Shown here: positions 24,996-58,314 of the stretch, one piece after another
Layout: each line of letters begins with the position of its first letter
How positions within the stretch are numbered: position 1 is the stretch's first letter
Assembly: GCF_903064525.1 (NCBI RefSeq)
Contig: NZ_LR797830.1
Span: 1,488,001 to 1,552,000, forward strand
Reading direction: 5' to 3'
Source of the DNA: Methylacidimicrobium sp. AP8
Lineage (GTDB): Bacteria > Verrucomicrobiota > Verrucomicrobiia > Methylacidiphilales > Methylacidiphilaceae
Length of the DNA stretch: 64,000 nt
The notes under the pieces: generated by a model
What the model was told of the DNA's origin: nothing
The model's database searches: none
The model's input: the letters and a program-made list of their open reading frames with translations, nothing else
Translations under genes and position numbers: made by a program

Positions 24996-27481
24996 ATGGT
25001 TCGAAAATACAGCGCCGCCTGCTGGGCCTGCCTCAGCCTCCTGGCCTCCGTGGGCTTCGCGGAAGCTCGGGACTCCGCGTCCGACCTGAGCTCCTCTCCG
25101 CCCTATGCCGAACCGACCCGGCTTCCCGAGGTGACGGTCAGCGCCGTCCAGGAACAACCCCCCGCTCCCGCCCGGGAAGCGACCTCGGTCTACGGGCCCG
25201 ACCTCTCCATTATGGATACTCCCCGCGACGTTCTCCCGGTCTCCCGGGAGGAGCTCGATACCGTGATGGCCCAGCAGGTCAATGACCTGGTCGCCTTCAG
25301 CCCCTCGGTCAACCCCACCGAGGCGACGGGAAACGTCGTGAGCGAGCCCGTGGTCCGCGGGCTCCCCGCGACAGCCTTCCGGAACGGGATGCTCGTCGGC
25401 TTCTCCAGCGGAGGGAACTGGGGACCGCTCCTCAACATCAACGCCGACGATTCGCTCGACGTCGTCACGGGGCCGGTGAGCATCGTCTTCGGCCCCCAGG
25501 AGTTCGCCGGAGGGTATGTCAATGAGGTGACCAAGCAGCCGTTTTTCGACCGCTTCCGGGGCGACGCTTACTACAGCTTGGGGATGTACGACACCAACCT
25601 ATGGAACATCGATATCGGCGGCCCCGTCGGGAAGGACAAAAAGCTCGCCTACCGCTTCGACTACTTCGGCCAGGAAGGCTATGCGCCTTACAACTATTAC
25701 GATGGTTCCTACTTGGACCGGGAGTGCGCCTACCTCGCCCTTTCCTGGAAGCCGACCGAGGAGGTTCAGGTCGACTGGAACGGAGAGATCGACCGGAATT
25801 CCTTTCTCCCCTACGCCGGGGTCAATCGACCGACCCAGGCCCTGATCGACAGCGGCCTCTACCAGAGCGGACCCTGGATCGGCTACTACACCCCTCCGGC
25901 GACCGCGGCGCAGCCCTTCGGCCGGTTTCATCCCGGCCGGGGGACTCCCCCTCCGGGCTCCGGATATGCTGTCGCCTGGGGACCCGAGGTTCCGATCGGC
26001 GGCCGCGCCAACCTTTTCGACACCTCGCTCGACTCCTCGCGTCAGCTCTACGCCGTGAGCCAGGCAATCGCCACGATCCGGCTCAATGAGCGGTTGACCC
26101 TCGTGAACAACACGCTTTTTGAGTATTTCCAAGCGAACGCCGCCCAGCCGGTCCCCGACCCGACCTGGGTCGTCCTGCCCTACGGGGTCGATCTGGCCGA
26201 CCGGCTCGAAATCCGCTGGGAACCCGAACAAAAGAGTTCCTGGTTCTCGCAAAGCGTGGACGGCGGCCTCGCCTTCCGCTTTCTGAGCGACGAGGAGTAT
26301 TCGGGAAGCTGGCACCCGACGAGCAACCAGGCCGACATGAGCAAGCCGATCACGGCAAGCGACGCCTCGCTCCCCGTTCCTTACTCCCTGGCGATCAGTC
26401 CCGCCTACGACAACCCGTTCCTCACCGACATCCCGATTCCGGGCTATCCGGGAGAATATTACAACGTCGACAACTTCGCCTCGACCCGGTGCAACTTCCA
26501 GGAGATCTCGCCCTTCCTCCAGGACATCCTCCATTTCGGAGAAAAGGCGACTCTCTTCCTCGGAGCCCGGCTTGACGCCTACTTCGTCGACGCCCGCCCC
26601 CGTCCGGCACCCCCGCCCTGCTCATCGGCCCCGCCTATGACGCCACCGCGACGAGCGCCCTCCTGCCGCAGCTGACCGCCAGCCCCACCTACCGGATCTT
26701 TCCCTGGATGTCCTGGTATGCGACCTACTATTTCGGGCAGACGACCGCCCAGTCGATCTTCGGCTCCTTCGCGCCCGAGTTCACCAGCACCTACTACCAT
26801 CAGACCCAGACCCTCTACGAAACCGGCCTCAAGTTCTCCCTCCTCCGGGACACCCTCTTCCTCGCCCTCTCGGCCTACGCCCAATCGGGCTTCATCCCGG
26901 CCTTCGTCCTCCCCGGAGGCGCCACTCCGACCGTGTCGGCCAACGTCCAAGGAGTCCAACTCGAGGGGAGCTACCGGCCGAGCCGCCGTTTTTGGGCGAA
27001 CTTCGGCTTCAACTACATGCAAGGATACGAAAACTGGACCAACACCGACGGCGTCGGCCCCACCACCTTCACCCCCTATCCGGCCGACGTGGCCGCGCAG
27101 TACGGCCTTCCGGTCAGCCAGATCGTCTCCCTCGCCCCGGGCATCTATCCCTTCATCGGCTTCCCCAAGGAGTACGGCAACCTGATGCTCACCTACAAGA
27201 CCGACGCGGGCTTCGGTGCCTCCTTCTGGGCGATCGGGCAGGGCGGCCAGTTCCTCTCCTACGACTACGCGGTCCGGGCTCCGGCCTGGTACACCCTGAA
27301 CGCGAGCCTCTTTTATGCCGCCGAGCACTGGGAGGCGCGGATCTGGCTCTACAACCTCACCGACAACCACTACTGGATCGCCGGGGCGCCGGGCTTTACC
27401 CCCGCCCGGACCGCGAACCTCGAATATGCCGCGCTCCAAATGCCCTTTTGGGTCCAGGCCATGATCCGCGTCTCCTTCTAG
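24996..27481 (+). CDS. TonB-dependent outer-membrane receptor, frame break near 26600
   Basis: An energised outer-membrane uptake channel for a siderophore or other ligand. Signal peptide (MVRKYSAACWACLSLLASVG), plug domain with PRDVLPVSREELDTVMAQQ and VVTGPVSIVFGPQEFAGG, then beta-barrel strands ending VQAMIRVSF with the terminal Phe required for barrel assembly. The first frame ends at 26675; the barrel continues in the next frame from before LIGPAYDATATSALLPQLT. Adding one C to the C5 run at 26597-26601 joins them seamlessly. Either a recent frameshift mutation or a homopolymer error. Methyltransferases and a hydrolase surround it; no TonB or regulator is adjacent. Confidence 0.85.
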
Positions 27482-31479: not shown

Positions 31480-31689
31480 GGCTCGCCGATCCGCCGGCCA
31501 CGCGGCGGACGCCGGCCGCGACCTCCGGCAGAGGATACAAGCCCCCGCCCCGTTTGACGAGACGTATCGGAAAGCCGGCTCCCGCCCGGACCTCCTCCTG
31601 CCGCGGGGGAAGCCGGACCTGCCGGCCGATTCTCGGGGCAGCCGGATCTTTTTTGAACGCCGCCGCCCCATTCCGCGTCTCAACCACCA

Positions 31690-31770
31690 GAAACCTCGAA
31701 GAATCGTTTTCCTCCTCAAACGATTCCCGAAAAGAGCGGCGCGGCGCAAAACCGCGCCGCTTCTTTTTTT
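31690..31770 (+). ncRNA. Predicted anti-SD small RNA, copy 0 (edge copy)
   Basis: Promoter TTGAAC (31653-31658), 17 bases, CGTCTC (31676-31681); predicted start eight bases later at GAAAC. Stem-loop 1 at 31701-31726: GAATCGTTT, loop TCCTCCTC, AAACGATTC. Stem-loop 2: GCGGCGCGG, loop CGCAAAA, CCGCGCCGC, then TTCTTTTTTT. Compared with inner copies the stem 2 base pair A-T is G-C, a compensatory change. Confidence 0.75.
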
Positions 31771-31860
31771 CCGCAGGACGACCGCGCACGGCCGCAGCCC
31801 GGGGCGGTTGCGGCCTTCCGCGGGCTCCTCCCTTCCTTGGGCGCTACAAATAATAAGGAA

Positions 31861-32040
31861 CGGACCGGCCGCCAACCCTCACCCTCCTCGGCGGCCCAGC
31901 CCCCCTTCTCCGGAGCCTTTTCCATTCGTCCGGCAAGCGCTTCGAGCGGGTCGACAAGAGAATGGGCGGCTTGCGGGCCGTCCCCGCGAAGCTGCTGCCG
32001 GAGGCTCTCGGAAGGAACGCCGGCAGCCGCGGGGCTGAGC
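31861..32040 (+). pseudogene. Degenerate copy of the coiled-coil ORF at the left edge
   Basis: Nucleotide similarity to the intact ORFs (CCCTCACCCTCCTCGGCGGC, GCAAGCGCTTCGAGC, GTCGACAAGAGAATG) but the start codon position reads ACG, indels disrupt the frame, and only one heptad unit can be recognised. It lies between RNA copies 0 and 1. Confidence 0.6.
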
Positions 32041-32090
32041 GGACAAAGATTTTTTGAACCTCTCCGCACCGAGCCGCGTCTCAACCGGCA

Positions 32091-32170
32091 GAAGCTTCCA
32101 ACGAATCGTTTTCCTCCTCTTGACGATTCCCGGAAGGACGGCGCGGCGCAAAACCGCGCCGTTCTTTTTT
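32091..32170 (+). ncRNA. Predicted anti-SD small RNA, copy 1
   Basis: Promoter TTGAAC 32054-32059, N17, CGTCTC 32077-32082; start at GAAGC. Stem-loop 1 at 32103-32129: GAATCGT/ACGATTC with loop containing TTTCCTCCTC; CTTCC and GGAAG outside it can extend the stem. Stem-loop 2: ACGGCGCGG, CGCAAAA, CCGCGCCGT followed by TCTTTTTT. Confidence 0.75.
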
Positions 32171-32245
32171 CTCTCGAGTCCTTGCGCACGGCGGGCTTTG
32201 TTCCGGTTGCCCTCCCCCCCCTTCCGCGCTAAAAAGAAGTAAGAC

Positions 32246-32512
32246 ATGGATTGGCCCCAAACCCTCACCCTCCTCGGCGGCCTAGCCGCCATCCTGTTCA
32301 GCCTCTTCCATCAGTTCGACAAGCGCTTCGAACAGGTGGACAAGCGCTTCGAGCAGGTCGATAAGAGAATTGACGACCTTCGCCTCGAAATGGTGCAGCG
32401 CTTCGCGCAGGTCGACAAGAGGATCGACGACTTGCGCGCCGATACGACCGGCCGCCTCGATCGGATCGAGCGGCTCCTCGAGCGCCTCCTCAAGCCGGAA
32501 TTGAAGCCCTGA
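32246..32512 (+). CDS. Membrane-anchored coiled-coil protein, two heptads
   Basis: 88 residues. Start MDWPQ, one membrane segment (TLTLLGGLAAILFSLFHQ), then DKRFEQV heptads (two), a fixed segment DKRIDDLRLEMVQRFAQV, a second DKRIDDLRAD and the C-terminal LDRIERLLERLLKPELKP. The heptad pattern predicts a coiled coil. Function unknown; proteins with similar DKRFEQ repeats exist in many bacteria without known role, and I name no family. No standard ribosome binding site precedes ATG (AAAAAGAAGTAAGAC only). It begins about 75 bases after the terminator of RNA copy 1. Confidence 0.75.
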   Translation: MDWPQTLTLLGGLAAILFSLFHQFDKRFEQVDKRFEQVDKRIDDLRLEMVQRFAQVDKRIDDLRADTTGRLDRIERLLERLLKPELKP

Positions 32513-32645
32513 AGATCCGGCCCGGGCCGCCTCCGCAAAGGTTCTTCTCCCGGGGCCCTTGCGGCGGTACCGGGGCGGCCGTGAGAGAGGCGGGCGCGCG
32601 AAGAAATTTTGAACCTCTCCGCACCGAGCCGCGTCTCAACCGGCA

Positions 32646-32725
32646 GAAGCTTCCAACGAATCGTTTTCCTCCTCTTGACGATTCCCGGAAGGACGGCGCG
32701 GCGCAAAACCGCGCCGTTCTTTTTT
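32646..32725 (+). ncRNA. Predicted anti-SD small RNA, copy 2
   Basis: Promoter TTGAAC 32609-32614, N17, CGTCTC 32632-32637. The transcript region is identical to copy 1, including the TTTTCCTCCTC loop and the GC-rich terminator hairpin with T6. Confidence 0.75.
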
Positions 32726-32800
32726 CTCTCGAGTCCTTGCGCACGGCGGGCTTTGTTCCGGTTGCCCTTCCCCCCCTTCCGCGCTAAAAAGAAGTAAGAC

Positions 32801-33109
32801 ATGGATTGGCCCCAAACCCTCACCCTCCTCGGCGGCCTAGCCGCCATCCTGTTCAGCCTCTTCCATCAGTTCGACAAGCGCTTCGAACAGGTGGACAAGC
32901 GCTTCGAGCAGGTGGACAAGCGCTTCGAACAGGTGGACAAGCGCTTCGAGCAGGTCGATAAGAGAATTGACGACCTTCGCCTCGAAATGGTGCAGCGCTT
33001 CGCGCAGGTCGACAAGAGGATCGACGACTTGCGCGCCGATACGACCGGCCGCCTCGATCGGATCGAGCGGCTCCTCGAGCGCCTCCTCAAGCCGGAATTG
33101 AAGCCCTGA
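32801..33109 (+). CDS. Membrane-anchored coiled-coil protein, four heptads
   Basis: 102 residues, identical in layout to the first copy (membrane segment, heptads, fixed RIDDLRLEM block, C-terminal helix), but with four DKRFEQV heptads. The 42-base length difference from copy 1 is exactly two 21-base repeat units. Unknown function. Confidence 0.75.
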   Translation: MDWPQTLTLLGGLAAILFSLFHQFDKRFEQVDKRFEQVDKRFEQVDKRFEQVDKRIDDLRLEMVQRFAQVDKRIDDLRADTTGRLDRIERLLERLLKPELKP

Positions 33110-33242
33110 AGATCCGGCCCGGGCCGCCTCCGCAAAGGTTCTTCTCCCGGGGCCCTTGCGGCGGTACCGGGGCGGCCGTGAGAGAGGCGGGCGCGCGAAG
33201 AAATTTTGAACCTCTCCGCACCGAGCCGCGTCTCAACCGGCA

Positions 33243-33322
33243 GAAGCTTCCAACGAATCGTTTTCCTCCTCTTGACGATTCCCGGAAGGACGGCGCGGCG
33301 CAAAACCGCGCCGTTCTTTTTT
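33243..33322 (+). ncRNA. Predicted anti-SD small RNA, copy 3
   Basis: Promoter TTGAAC 33206-33211, N17, CGTCTC 33229-33234. Transcript identical to copies 1 and 2; ends in the T run at 33322. Confidence 0.75.
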
Positions 33323-33397
33323 CTCTCGAGTCCTTGCGCACGGCGGGCTTTGTTCCGGTTGCCCTCCCCCCCCTTCCGCGCTAAAAAGAAGTAAGAC

Positions 33398-33727
33398 ATG
33401 GATTGGCCCCAAACCCTCACCCTCCTCGGCGGCCTAGCCGCCATCCTGTTCAGCCTTTTCCATCAGTTCGACAAGCGCTTCGAACAGGTGGACAAGCGCT
33501 TCGAACAGGTGGACAAACGCTTCGAACAGGTCGACAAACGCTTCGAACAGGTCGACAAACGCTTCGAACAGGTCGATAAGAGAATTGACGACCTTCGCCT
33601 CGAAATGGTGCAGCGCTTCGCGCAGGTCGACAAGAGGATCGACGACTTGCGCGCCGATACGACCGGCCGCCTCGATCGGATCGAGCGGCTCCTCGAGCGC
33701 CTCCTCAAGCCGGAATTGAAGCCCTGA
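33398..33727 (+). CDS. Membrane-anchored coiled-coil protein, five heptads
   Basis: 109 residues, five DKRFEQV heptads, otherwise as the other copies. Repeat units vary at silent positions (GTG/GTC, CGC/AAACGC), so the heptads were not all copied in one event. Unknown function. Confidence 0.75.
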   Translation: MDWPQTLTLLGGLAAILFSLFHQFDKRFEQVDKRFEQVDKRFEQVDKRFEQVDKRFEQVDKRIDDLRLEMVQRFAQVDKRIDDLRADTTGRLDRIERLLERLLKPELKP

Positions 33728-33860
33728 AGATCCGGCCCGGGCCGCCTCCGCAAAGGTTCTTCTCCCGGGGCCCTTGCGGCGGTACCGGGGCGGCCGTGAG
33801 AGAGGCGGGCGCGCGAAGAAATTTTGAACATCGTCGCCGGCAGCTGCGTTTCAATGGTTA

Positions 33861-33939
33861 GAAGCCTCGAACGAATCGTTTTCCTCCTCAAACGATTCCC
33901 GGAAGGACGGCGCGGCGCAAAACCGCGCCGTTCTTTTTT
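33861..33939 (+). ncRNA. Predicted anti-SD small RNA, copy 4
   Basis: Promoter TTGAAC 33824-33829, N17 of different sequence from copies 1-3, CGTTTC 33847-33852. Stem-loop 1 is a perfect nine-pair stem GAATCGTTT/AAACGATTC with loop TCCTCCTC; stem-loop 2 as in copy 1, ending in T6. Confidence 0.75.
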
Positions 33940-34014
33940 CTCTCGAGTCCTTGCGCACGGCGGGCTCCGTTCCGGTTGCCCTTCCCCGCCTTCCGCGCTA
34001 AAAAGAAGTAAGAC

Positions 34015-34407
34015 ATGGATTGGCCCCAAACCCTCACCCTCCTCGGCGGCCTAGCCGCCATCCTGTTCAGCCTTTTCCATCAGTTCGACAAGCGCTTCGA
34101 ACAGGTCGACAAACGCTTCGAGCAGTTCGACAAGCGCTTCGAACAGGTCGACAAGCGCTTCGAACAGGTGGACAAGCGCTTCGAACAGGTGGACAAGCGC
34201 TTCGAACAGGTCGACAAACGCTTCGAACAGGTCGATAAACGCTTCGAGCAGGTCGATAAGAGAATTGACGACCTTCGCCTCGAAATGGTGCAGCGCTTCG
34301 CGCAGGTCGACAAGAGGATCGACGACTTGCGCGCCGATACGACCGGCCGCCTCGATCGGATCGAGCGGCTCCTCGAGCGCCTCCTCAAGCCGGAATTGAA
34401 GCCCTGA
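34015..34407 (+). CDS. Membrane-anchored coiled-coil protein, eight heptads
   Basis: 130 residues, the longest copy, with eight heptads; the second linker reads EQFDKRFEQ instead of EQVDKRFEQ. N-terminal membrane segment and C-terminal LDRIERLLERLL are unchanged. Unknown function. Confidence 0.75.
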   Translation: MDWPQTLTLLGGLAAILFSLFHQFDKRFEQVDKRFEQFDKRFEQVDKRFEQVDKRFEQVDKRFEQVDKRFEQVDKRFEQVDKRIDDLRLEMVQRFAQVDKRIDDLRADTTGRLDRIERLLERLLKPELKP

Positions 34408-34540
34408 AGATCCGGCCCGGGCCGCCTCCGCAAAGGTTCTTCTCCCGGGGTCCTTGCGGCGGTACCGGGGCGGCCGTGAGAGAGGCGGGCGCGCGAAGAA
34501 ATTTTGAACATCGTCGCCGGCAGCTGCGTTTCAATGGTTA

Positions 34541-34620
34541 GAAGCCTCGAACGAATCGTTTTCCTCCTCAAACGATTCCCGGAAGAGCGGCGCGGCGCAA
34601 AACTGCGCTGTTCTTTTTTT
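34541..34620 (+). ncRNA. Predicted anti-SD small RNA, copy 5
   Basis: Promoter TTGAAC 34504-34509, N17, CGTTTC 34527-34532. Stem-loop 1 as copy 4. Stem-loop 2 reads GCGGCGCGG, CGCAAAA, CTGCGCTGT: several bases changed yet every pair is kept by G-U wobbles. T7 tail. Confidence 0.75.
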
Positions 34621-34732
34621 CCGGAAGCCGCCATCCTTGCGGCGCCGCTCCTCTCACCTCCTTTCGGCCGGCGGGTTCCCTTCCGGTTGCTCCTCGCTCC
34701 CTTTTCCGGCGACAAGGAAGCAAGCCCGGGAA

Positions 34733-34908
34733 CGGGCGCAAAACCTCGGCTTGCCCGCTGCGGCGGCTGTCCTCTTCGGCCTTTTCCGTCGGTGCCGCAA
34801 GCGCTTCGCGCAGGTCGACAAGAGGATCGACGACTTGCGCGCCGATACGGCCGGCCATCTCGATCGGATCGAGCGGCTCCCCAAGCCGGACGGGAAGCCC
34901 CGAGGATC
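34733..34908 (+). pseudogene. Degenerate copy of the coiled-coil ORF at the right edge
   Basis: Reads KRFAQVDKRIDDLRADTAGHLDRIERLPKPD in frame but has lost the start codon context and all DKRFEQV heptads; the membrane segment is replaced by an Ala-rich stretch. It lies between RNA copies 5 and 6. Confidence 0.65.
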
Positions 34909-35027
34909 CGGCGCGGGCCGCCTCCGGAGGGATTCCACCCCCGACTCCGCGGAAACCGGCAGCTTCGCAAGGCGGGCGGGGAACGAAACTTTGAACGTCG
35001 CCGCCGGAAGCGGCGTCTCACTCATTA

Positions 35028-35105
35028 GAAGCCTCGAACGAATCGTTTTCCTCCTCTCAACGATTCCCGGAAGAGCGGCGCGGCAAAACCGTGCCGCTCT
35101 TTTTT
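35028..35105 (+). ncRNA. Predicted anti-SD small RNA, copy 6 (edge copy)
   Basis: Promoter TTGAAC 34991-34996, N17, CGTCTC 35014-35019. Stem-loop 1 has GAATCGTT/AACGATTC with loop TTCCTCCTCTC. Stem-loop 2 is AGAGCGGCGCGG, CAAAA, CCGTGCCGCTCT, twelve pairs including one G-U, then T6. Sequence differs from inner copies but both structures are kept. Confidence 0.72.
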
Positions 35106-36983: not shown

Positions 36984-38261
36984 TCAAAATTGTGCGGAAG
37001 ATGGGTTGACCGCGCCGATCACGGAAGTGTAGGCCGGGTCGACTTCGATCCGTTTGACTCCGGCACGAAAGGAAGCCGCCTTGAGCATGGAGATCGTCTT
37101 GGCGTAGGCGAAGGATGAGAGCGAGCGAGCCCGGACGCAATCGACCGCCTCCAGCTCGGCCCTCCGCTTGCGAAGATCCAATCGCTCGATCACGAGCGGC
37201 TTGCCCGATTCGGCGCAGGCCCGGGCGATCTGCCGGCACGCATCGCCGATCGCGGCTTTCGCCTGCTCCTCGCTCTTCCCATAGAGATGCAATCCGATCC
37301 GGCGCATTTCCACGAGATTCCCGAAGCGATCCGTTTCGGCCAAGGCAAGATGATCCGGGTTGCTGTCAACGCCGATTGCTCCGGCAAGGCGGCGTGTCAC
37401 CAGGGCAACCGGTTGCGCCTCGACGCTTGCGAACAGCCGCCAGCCCTTCCGGTCCCGCACGAAGCGGTAGCTCACGGCAGCTCCCTCCCGCTTGCGGAAG
37501 AGCTTCCCCGTCTTGGTTTGTGCGGTCACGACCCGGCCGGCGGAGAGGGCCTGGAGGATTTCCTCCTGGCCGTAGGCCAAGCGCACGCCCTCGAGCACCA
37601 GGTGTTTGCTCGTGCTTCCCCATCCGTACGGCAGCCGCAACCGCAGCCGCAGGCTGCCCTCCGGAGCGACTGCGGCTTGGCAGGACTGGTTGCCCGAGGC
37701 CTCGTCCTTCGATCCGAGCACGAAGAACTGGCTGCTCCGCTCTGCCTGCCAATCCTTCTTCCATGCGGCATGGTCCGCATAGCCGTTCTTTTCCCGGGCA
37801 AAGTGCTTGCGGAAGAGGCGTCGGGAACCGAAACAGAGCCGGACCCGGCCGGACTCCTGATCGGCCAGAAGCGCCTCGAGCTTCGCCCGCAGGACGGCAA
37901 GCCGCCGCTTTTTCTGGTGCACGACATCCGATCCCGGATGCTTCTTCTCCAGCCGGCCGACCGCCTCTTCCGCTTTCTGGATCCGCCATTTGGCTTCCTC
38001 TATCAACTCGGGCCGCCTTTCCCGGATCGAGGCGATCTTGCCTTCGAGCTCGACCCGAATGGCGTTGAACTGCCGGGCGGTGAGGCCGAACCGGCGCAGA
38101 AACGACCGCTTGAGCTCGTTTATGGGAACGCCCGCCCGCATCCTGGCCAAAAGAGTCCGCTGCGCCCGCCCGTAGAGCGCCGCATAGGCGTCAAGACACG
38201 AAGTCTGCTCATGCGTCAACCTCAACCGGGTCTAGTAGGTGAAAACAGGGAGCTTACTCAT
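36984..38261 (-). pseudogene. IS607-type TnpB, copy 1 (stop at codon 10, C-terminus lost)
   Basis: RNA-guided nuclease family TnpB of an IS607-like element. RuvC-like motifs GVDSNPDHLALAE (first Asp) and LVIERLDLRKR (Glu) are visible. Compared with copy 2, codon 10 (CAG) is TAG here, and homology stops near 37004 so the end after VIGAVN is missing. A shortened product could start at the internal ATG at 38225. The canonical C4 zinc ribbon is not present in this branch. The coding start overlaps the end of the tnpA gene by eight bases. Confidence 0.8.
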
Positions 38262-40579: not shown

Positions 40580-42232
40580 CTAAAACCATAGACAACCATT
40601 CCCCCACCAGGGGAGATCGTCCACGACGTCGGCCGAACAGTGCTGCCGGCGGTTCGCGTGCCGGGGTTTCGCCGGCAAAGTCCGGGTAGCGCCCAATGCT
40701 CGCGCTTTCGGGGACAGAGGCGCGGGAGGCAAGCGGTTGCCTCCCGACCGGGCATGCGCTGCATGCGCGGCTTTGAGCCCCTTTCGAACGGCCGCCCAGA
40801 ACGACCATAGATGCTTCGCCCGATTCGTCGCGGGTAGGGCGAAGGTGAGATGGCCGCCATTGCGGGTCGGCACGACCGCCTCCCGCACGGACGGGCGCTC
40901 GGATAGGCCCAATCCTCTCCGGGCGACGGCGTAGGCCGCGCCCTGGTGAGAACCGATGCCATGACGGCGCGCGTGGTTGACCGCGCCGATCACGGAAGTG
41001 TAGGCCGGGTCGACTTCGATCCGTTAGACTCCGGCACGAAAGGAAGCCGCCTTGAGCATGGAGATCGTCTTGGCGTAGGCGAAGGAAGAGAGCGAGCGAG
41101 CCCGGACACCATCGACCGCCTCGAGCTCGGCCCCCCGCTTGCGAAGATCCAATCGCTCGATCACGAGCGGCTTGCCCGATTCGGCGCAGGCCCGGGCGAT
41201 CTGCCGGCACGCATCGCCGATCGCGGCTTTCGCCTGCTCCTCGCTCTTCCCATAGAGATGCAATCCGATCCGGCGGATTTCCACGAGATTCCCGAAGCGA
41301 TCCGTTTCGGCCAAGGCAAGATGATCCGGGTTGCTGTCAACGCCGATCGCTCCGGCAAGGCGGCGTGTCACCAGGGCAACCGGTTGCGCCTCGACGCTTG
41401 CGAACAGCCGCCAGCCCTTCCGGTCCCGCACGAAGCGGTAGCTCACGGCAGCTCCCTCCCGCTTGCGGAAGAGCTTCCCCGTCTTGGTTTGTGCGGTCAC
41501 GACCCGGCCGGCGGAGAGGGCCTGGAGGATTTCCTCCTGGCCGTAGGCCAAGCGCACGCCCTCGAGCACCAGGTGTTTGCTCGTGCTTCCCCATCCGTAC
41601 GGCAGCCGCAACCGCAGCCGCAGGCTGCCGTCCGGAGCGACTGCGGCTTGGCAGGACTGGTTGCCCGAGGCCTCGTCCTTCGATCCGAGCACGAAGAACT
41701 GGCTGCTCCGCTCCGCCTGCCAATCCTTCTTCCATGCGGCATGGTCCGCATAGCCGTTCTCTTCCCGGGAAAACTGCTTGCGGAAGAGGCGTCGGGAACC
41801 GAAACAGAGCCGGACCCGGCCGGACTCCTGATCGGCCAGAAGCGCCTCGAGCTTCGCCCGCAGGACGGCAAGCCGCCGCTTTTTCTGGTGCACGACATTC
41901 GATCCCGGATGCTTCTTCTCCAGCCGGCCGACCGCCTCTTCCGCTTTCCGGATCCGCCATTTGGCTTCCTCGATCAACTCGGGCCGCCTTTCCCGGATCG
42001 AGGCGATCTTCCCCCCAAGCTCGACCCGAATGGCGTTGAACTGCCGGGCGGTGAGGCCGAATCGGCGCAGGAACGACCGCTTGAGCTCGTTCAGGGGAAC
42101 GCCCGCCCGCATCCTGGCGAAAAGAGTCCGCTGCGCCCGCCCGTAGAGCGCCGCATAGGCGTCAAGACACGAAGTCTGCTCATGCGTCAACCTCAACCGG
42201 GTCTGGTAGGTGAAAACAGGGAGCTTACTCAT
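40580..42232 (-). pseudogene. IS607-type TnpB, copy 2 (internal stop)
   Basis: Starts MSKLPVFTYQTRLRLTHEQT and is open to FRAGV, where an AAA codon of copy 1 is TAA (stop at 41024-41026). In-frame homology continues after the stop: RIEVDPAYTSVIGAVNHARR, then GIGSHQGAAYAVARRGLG. The region corresponding to the usual zinc ribbon and third catalytic Asp instead carries this His/Gln/Ala-rich sequence. The product made would lack the C-terminal quarter. Confidence 0.8.
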
Positions 42233-57977: not shown

Positions 57978-58003
57978 AGCTACTCCTTTTCCTGCAAGCG
58001 CAA

Positions 58004-58056
58004 CCGGTAGGAGTTATCAGCCGAGGCGGCGGTTTGCGGGGAACTCCATCCCCTTG
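58004..58056 (-). promoter_or_regulatory. Fluoride (crcB-type) riboswitch aptamer
   Basis: On the minus strand: GGGGATGGAGTTCCCC (58053-58038), then GCAAACCGCC, a short stem GCC/GGC, and GGCTGATAACTCCTACC (down to 58004). This matches the fluoride aptamer pattern GGnGAUGGnnUUCnCC ... ACCnCC ... CUGAUnnCUCCUAC. GGAGTT in the first loop can pair with AACTCC near the 3' end, the ligand-dependent pseudoknot. It lies upstream of the leader ORF and the antiporter. Confidence 0.88.
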
Positions 58057-58314
58057 GCGCAGACATCCTAAAGGGGAGCCGGTCCCTGTCAAGGGGCAAA
58101 CGCGGCGTGTCGTCAGCAAGTGAAGGGACCGCTTCGGCGTCGAAGCGGGGTAGCCGGGCGCGCGGGAGTGGCTTGCGGCCGGCAAGAGCACGACCGCGCT
58201 GCGAGCCGCCGGTTGACGAATCGGAGGCCCGGAGGCAGCATGGCCGCCGGTTCCTGCGGGCGCCGATCCGGCCCGGGACGCCGGCGGCCGGCGGGAACCG
58301 GAGGGGAAGCGGCG
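58057..58314. other. Divergent promoter region between antiporter and PfkB genes
   Basis: About 260 bases without a gene. It should hold promoters for the riboswitch transcript (leftward) and for the kinase gene (rightward), but I could not place either with confidence. A GC-rich hairpin GACCGCTTCGG-CGTCGAAGCGG is near 58130. Confidence 0.35.

Follow-up and report, generated by a model that had tools for sequence, protein, structure and literature searches.

The alphaproteobacterial ar14 family of small RNAs (RF02344; alpha-r14/NfeR1, cuckoo) carries the anti-Shine-Dalgarno (aSD) motif CCUCC in unpaired loops and has three hairpins, each with CCUCCUCCC. NfeR1, an RNA with such an aSD loop, represses by covering the translation start of the mRNA (PMC10746234). 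The CcsR RNAs arise by processing of a single transcript that also carries the DUF1127 gene ccaF1, and they bind Hfq (PMC8307010); the multicopy LhrC RNAs do not need Hfq for their action (PMC4132741). CcsR1-4 of Rhodobacter sphaeroides are four homologous RNAs with a small ORF alongside and are under stress sigma control; LhrC1-5 of Listeria (Firmicutes) are five near-identical copies with three CU-rich UCCC sites, a C-rich motif of the SD-blocking type, and are induced by envelope stress under control of the two-component system LisRK. MicA and RybB are sigma-E-dependent small RNAs that repress porins by Hfq-dependent seed pairing and have no aSD loop.

The locus analyzed here lies in Methylacidimicrobium thermophilum AP8, a verrucomicrobial methanotroph (PMC7907005). 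The genome of this acid-loving, methane-eating bacterium is closed (2,300,970 bp), and our window is a 64,000-nucleotide stretch of it. At window positions 31653-35105, seven modules on the plus strand are interleaved with six copies of a coiled-coil ORF (Table 1). Each module comprises a promoter, TTGAAC-N17-CGT(C/T), a hairpin with an invariant CCUCCUC loop and an intrinsic terminator. This agrees with an earlier note on this DNA, which had described seven modules in one direction, anti-SD small-RNA genes, and six ORF copies of which four are intact. The intact copies encode 88, 102, 109 and 130 aa, and the two degenerate ones lie at the ends. The claim of the note that each RNA has its own promoter and terminator is borne out by the conserved anatomy of all seven copies.

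The likeness to ar14 lies in the CCUCC motif of the unpaired loop, but the array RNAs have one aSD hairpin followed by a terminator, instead of three hairpins. Although ar14 is the nearest Rfam model, its scores in the array (26.9 and 24.3 bits) lie far below the gathering cut-off of 58.8, so that score and hairpin number rule out membership. With CcsR, the array shares homologous RNAs next to a small ORF, and the stress sigma control there has a counterpart in an ECF-like promoter here. In contrast to CcsR, however, the copies have separate promoters, the ORF has its own promoter-like sequence and no match to DUF1127, and no Hfq gene was found in five genomes, which excludes membership; the note had already pointed to the differing ORF type and host, and the host is indeed unusual. 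Near-identical copies, a C-rich SD-blocking-type motif and Hfq-free action, here as proposed, recall LhrC; this is a shared design and not model identity, as the LhrC model is not among the Rfam matches of the array with E up to 5. MicA and RybB resemble the array RNAs in the ECF-type promoter, and one copy of the array family adjoins outer-membrane porin genes, but no homology is indicated and porin regulation is only a candidate here. By analogy, the array RNA may thus work like the multicopy aSD RNAs (LhrC, NfeR1, CcsR), while the features tested make it a member of none of them.

Table 1. Features of the array (window coordinates) and related features in other genomes (contig:coordinates).
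Feature	Position	Strand	Evidence or remark
Promoter copy 1, TTGAAC-N17-CGTC	31653..31679	+	motif match; motif positions conserved in relatives
sRNA copy 1	31682..31768	+	CCTCCTC loop at 31711, terminator; R1 91.9 bits; fold
Degenerate coiled-coil ORF copy	about 31870..32030	+	start codon now ACG; repeat family
Promoter copy 2	32054..32080	+	motif match
sRNA copy 2	32083..32170	+	R1 92.9 bits
Sigma-70-like ORF promoter, TTGCCC-17-TAAAAA	32207..32235	+	-10 end 10 nt before ATG
Coiled-coil ORF, 88 aa, N-terminal hydrophobic segment	32246..32512	+	no specific Pfam/NCBIfam family
Promoter copy 3	32609..32635	+	motif match
sRNA copy 3	32638..32725	+	R1 92.9 bits
Sigma-70-like ORF promoter	32762..32790	+	pattern match
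Coiled-coil ORF, 102 aa	32801..33109	+	ORF listing
Promoter copy 4	33206..33232	+	motif match
sRNA copy 4	33235..33322	+	R1 92.9 bits
Sigma-70-like ORF promoter	33359..33387	+	pattern match
Coiled-coil ORF, 109 aa	33398..33727	+	ORF listing
Promoter copy 5, CGTT variant	33824..33850	+	motif match
sRNA copy 5	33853..33939	+	R1 102.4 bits
Sigma-70-like ORF promoter	33976..34004	+	pattern match
Coiled-coil ORF, 130 aa	34015..34407	+	ORF listing
Promoter copy 6, CGTT variant	34504..34530	+	motif match
sRNA copy 6	34533..34619	+	R1 95.5 bits
Degenerate coiled-coil ORF copy	about 34716..34905	+	repeat families D5, D8
Promoter copy 7	34991..35017	+	motif match
sRNA copy 7, last of the array	35020..35105	+	R1 96.9 bits
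Second anti-SD RNA, Methylacidiphilum	L025:3869-3953, L026:3571-3659, L027:4151-4236, L071:3830-3918, L072:4171-4253		
LuxI-type synthase and LuxR-type regulator genes, relatives	L018:3485-5205, L023:5074-6758, L022:942-2605		

On the 3' side of the last RNA copy lies an insertion sequence (IS) with a DDE transposase, from 35251, and the region beyond is rich in IS elements, with two near-identical TnpB-like transposon-type ORFs (36984-38225 and 41024-42232). Elsewhere in the window, a TonB-receptor-like coding region extends over two ORFs (24996-26675 and 26708-27481), probably due to a frameshift or sequencing error, and a fluoride riboswitch (RF01734, 56.6 bits) is located on the minus strand at 58001-58062.

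In folding, each RNA forms a single hairpin, with UUUUCCUCCUC in the apical loop, and a strong intrinsic terminator behind it; hairpin and terminator of the array copies reach z-scores of -2.8 to -5.7 against dinucleotide shuffles (single-sequence folds). We built a covariance model, R1, on 20 copies; the array copies score 92-102 bits with it, being among the copies from which it was built. Across 32 copies, standard pairs occupy 99.4% of the structure cells, compared to 94.2% in shuffles. Changes on both sides of a pair occur in six pairs, all in the terminator stem, while the first hairpin varies through G-U replacement only and no pair in it is broken. Segment conservation, computed for two loci outside the array (loci A and C below) with the Methylacidiphilum set left out, is high in the -35 box (0.90-0.94), the -10 box (0.90-1.0) and the CCTCCTC loop (1.0), as opposed to the promoter spacer (0.50-0.53) and the flanks (0.42-0.75). 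Selection is visible in this pattern, with promoter boxes and loop kept and the spacer and most flanks drifted. Because boxes and loop are near-invariant amid drifted surroundings, the terminator stem covaries and the copies occupy three syntenic loci, we have little doubt that the module represents a real small-RNA family. We infer from the conserved anatomy that it is transcribed, each copy as a gene in its own right, about 75-85 nt long.

The promoter motif TTGAAC-N17-CGT[CT] has seven matches in the window, all on the plus strand and all preceding RNA copies, and none on the minus strand. In the whole AP8 genome, the exact CGTC form matches seven times, at five array copies, at 225123 and at one other site; since six of the seven matches precede RNA copies, this form is close to RNA-specific. 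With a conserved GAAC in the -35 box, a CGTC-type -10 box and fixed spacing (GAAC-N18-GT is constant in the Methylacidimicrobium copies shown), the promoter has the features of an ECF-type sRNA gene and resembles those of ECF, stress-type sigma factors. ECF-type sigma genes are present in the genomes; the motif is absent upstream of all sigma genes examined, ECF included, which led us to reject autoregulation of an ECF sigma factor through it.

Outside the array, the covariance model found two further copies in AP8, a diverged one (1159747-1159828) and a decayed one (225123-225201). Such a search of related genomes had been proposed in the earlier note, with absence from relatives and random drift of the hairpins as the outcome to fear; instead, 12 of the 13 Methylacidiphilaceae genomes have the RNA, with conserved hairpins, and the model found none in the thirteenth, the sole representative of a third genus. 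In a phylum-wide search of 289 genomes with R1, every strong match was inside this family. We inspected seven of the weaker matches outside it (27-33 bits) and discarded them as terminators without the promoter and mostly without the loop. When 84,980 genomes were scanned for the exact pattern, all matching records were of the Methylacidiphilaceae type except for one gammaproteobacterial match, also discarded, as it scored 17.4 bits, covered the hairpin part only and lay in a coding-like context.

The copies fall into three syntenic loci. Locus A, which Methylacidimicrobium shares with all five Methylacidiphilum genomes, is the gap 3' of two porin-type outer-membrane genes and 5' of lysC; its AP8 copy is decayed (48.6 bits) and adjoins an IS. 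Locus B is the tandem array with coiled-coil ORFs, found in four genomes (G000, G001, G002, G005); in two more (G004, G006) contig ends carry partial copies. In G000, G002 and G005 the array has the same neighbors nearby, epimerase and glycosyltransferase genes. Six Methylacidimicrobium genomes have the RNA at locus C, where a PAP2-like gene lies on one side and a convergent glnA on the other. All five Methylacidiphilum genomes have a second, diverged aSD RNA, TTTCCTCCTCCTC, directly 5' of the first and with identical promoter spacing.

The array ORF encodes a coiled coil with 2-10 DKR repeats and, at the N-terminus, a short hydrophobic segment; in AP8, the main difference between the intact copies is how many 21-nt/7-aa RFEQVDK repeats they have. 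Searches against Pfam and NCBIfam gave generic coiled-coil matches below the cut-offs, no specific family and no DUF1127. A larger coiled-coil relative is encoded near the porin-lysC RNA of one Methylacidiphilum genome (L072:1010-1714). The ORF is preceded by a conserved sigma-70-like promoter-like sequence of its own, TTGCCC-17-TA(A/C)AAA, with a spacer of exactly 17 nt. In nearly all copies its -10 box ends 6-10 nt before the ATG, so that the mRNA is probably leaderless or nearly so; an ORF copy in G002, with TATGAA and a possible SD, is the exception. The ORF start region lacks an SD, and its pairing with the RNA loop is poor (-5.3 kcal/mol), being equaled or surpassed by 89% of sampled genes (background of 254 ORFs from 400 kb of one relative, G005, with heuristic choice of starts). 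The coupling of the RNA to an envelope-protein ORF, proposed in the earlier note, thus appears weak, and the shared array is most readily explained by a co-duplication of RNA and ORF at locus B only.

Within the array, every RNA that precedes an ORF does so directly and on the same strand, as expected of a transcription-attenuation leader, yet we consider this reading very unlikely: loci A and C have the RNA and no ORF beside it, hence it is not an ORF leader. At the porin locus the downstream gene is lysC, the RNA of the glnA locus faces glnA convergently and has no gene to lead into, the final AP8 array copy lacks an ORF, and the ORF has a conserved promoter of its own. The tandem alternation of small membrane-type ORFs with small RNAs could also suggest an array of type I toxin-antitoxin systems, in which the RNA neutralizes a membrane-protein toxin. 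This we judge highly improbable, as the RNA does not lie antisense to the ORF, has little pairing with the ORF start and occurs at two loci without the ORF, which itself is long and consists mostly of variable coiled-coil repeats. Barely plausible is a dispersing element of the REP or MITE kind; the tandem copies are indeed near-identical, but nine copies at only three loci, with the RNA at these same loci in relatives, and a function-like conservation footprint speak for a gene family. RNA loci without the ORF, the separate ORF promoter and synteny thus led us to reject all three.

A quorum-linked set, in which the RNAs would form a module with adjacent LuxI/LuxR genes by analogy to Qrr RNAs, draws on the genomic neighborhood: luxI (PF00765) and luxR (PF03472 and PF00196) genes follow the array in G001, G005 and G004, and in G006 a truncated RNA copy at a contig end lies upstream of luxI. 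This adjacency may be due to chance. AP8 keeps seven RNAs without any luxI match, IS elements occupying the site after the array, and the luxI start has no SD and almost no pairing with the loop (-0.2 kcal/mol). With the RNA but no luxI match in Methylacidiphilum, a link across the family is improbable, and we give this reading little credence.

The reading we prefer, with a probability of roughly 60%, is that of a multicopy RNA of the ECF-sigma type which, without Hfq or ProQ, masks SD sequences through its aSD loop and blocks translation. It draws, by analogy, on the loop sequence, a mimic of the 16S anti-SD, and on tested RNAs of the same design. The array would be a tandem set of one trans-acting small-RNA family, amplified for gene dosage, every copy being transcribed separately, between an ECF-sigma-type promoter and a Rho-independent terminator of its own. 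The hairpin would display UUUUCCUCCUC, whose invariant CCUCCUC part could pair with SD regions of the GAGGAGG type, block ribosome binding and switch off translation of selected proteins. Searches of five family genomes revealed neither Hfq nor ProQ, and the RNA is proposed to act without them. The coiled-coil ORF would be a separate unit, its leaderless, SD-less mRNA being beyond the reach of the loop.

Likely targets would be envelope mRNAs, such as that of the porin gene that adjoins the RNA copy in the porin-lysC gap. In G000, G001, G002 and G005 the start of this gene, GGAGGAGGATGA, is complementary to the loop; by pairing energy, this porin-2 start ranks in the best 3% of the above background in the first three and in the best 0.4% in G005. 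Purine-rich SD sequences are common, however, and the match may be generic. As the Methylacidiphilum porin starts have not kept it and rank near the middle of the sample, the assignment of the porin mRNA as a target is suggestive only. Full complements of the loop in front of a start codon (GAGGAGGAAA-N2-8-ATG) number a handful per genome, with no target set common to the family.

A survey of Rfam in 2022 counted eight small-RNA families in the entire PVC group (PMC9029176). The papers we found describe no small-RNA family in verrucomicrobial methanotrophs, and no Rfam family matches the array RNAs at the curated cut-off, so that the suggestion of the earlier note that the system is undescribed holds as far as checked. 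With its promoter motif, its amplified array and two single-copy loci whose orthologues suit clean genetics, the family makes the action of base-pairing RNAs without Hfq or ProQ testable in cultured methanotrophs. In a broader form of the preferred reading, which we regard as rather unlikely, an ECF sigma factor would turn on up to nine aSD RNA copies as a chaperone-independent global repressor specific to Verrucomicrobiota, masking SD sequences and sparing leaderless mRNAs, those of the coiled-coil ORFs among them. If true, stress would shift translation in these bacteria from SD-led to leaderless messages.
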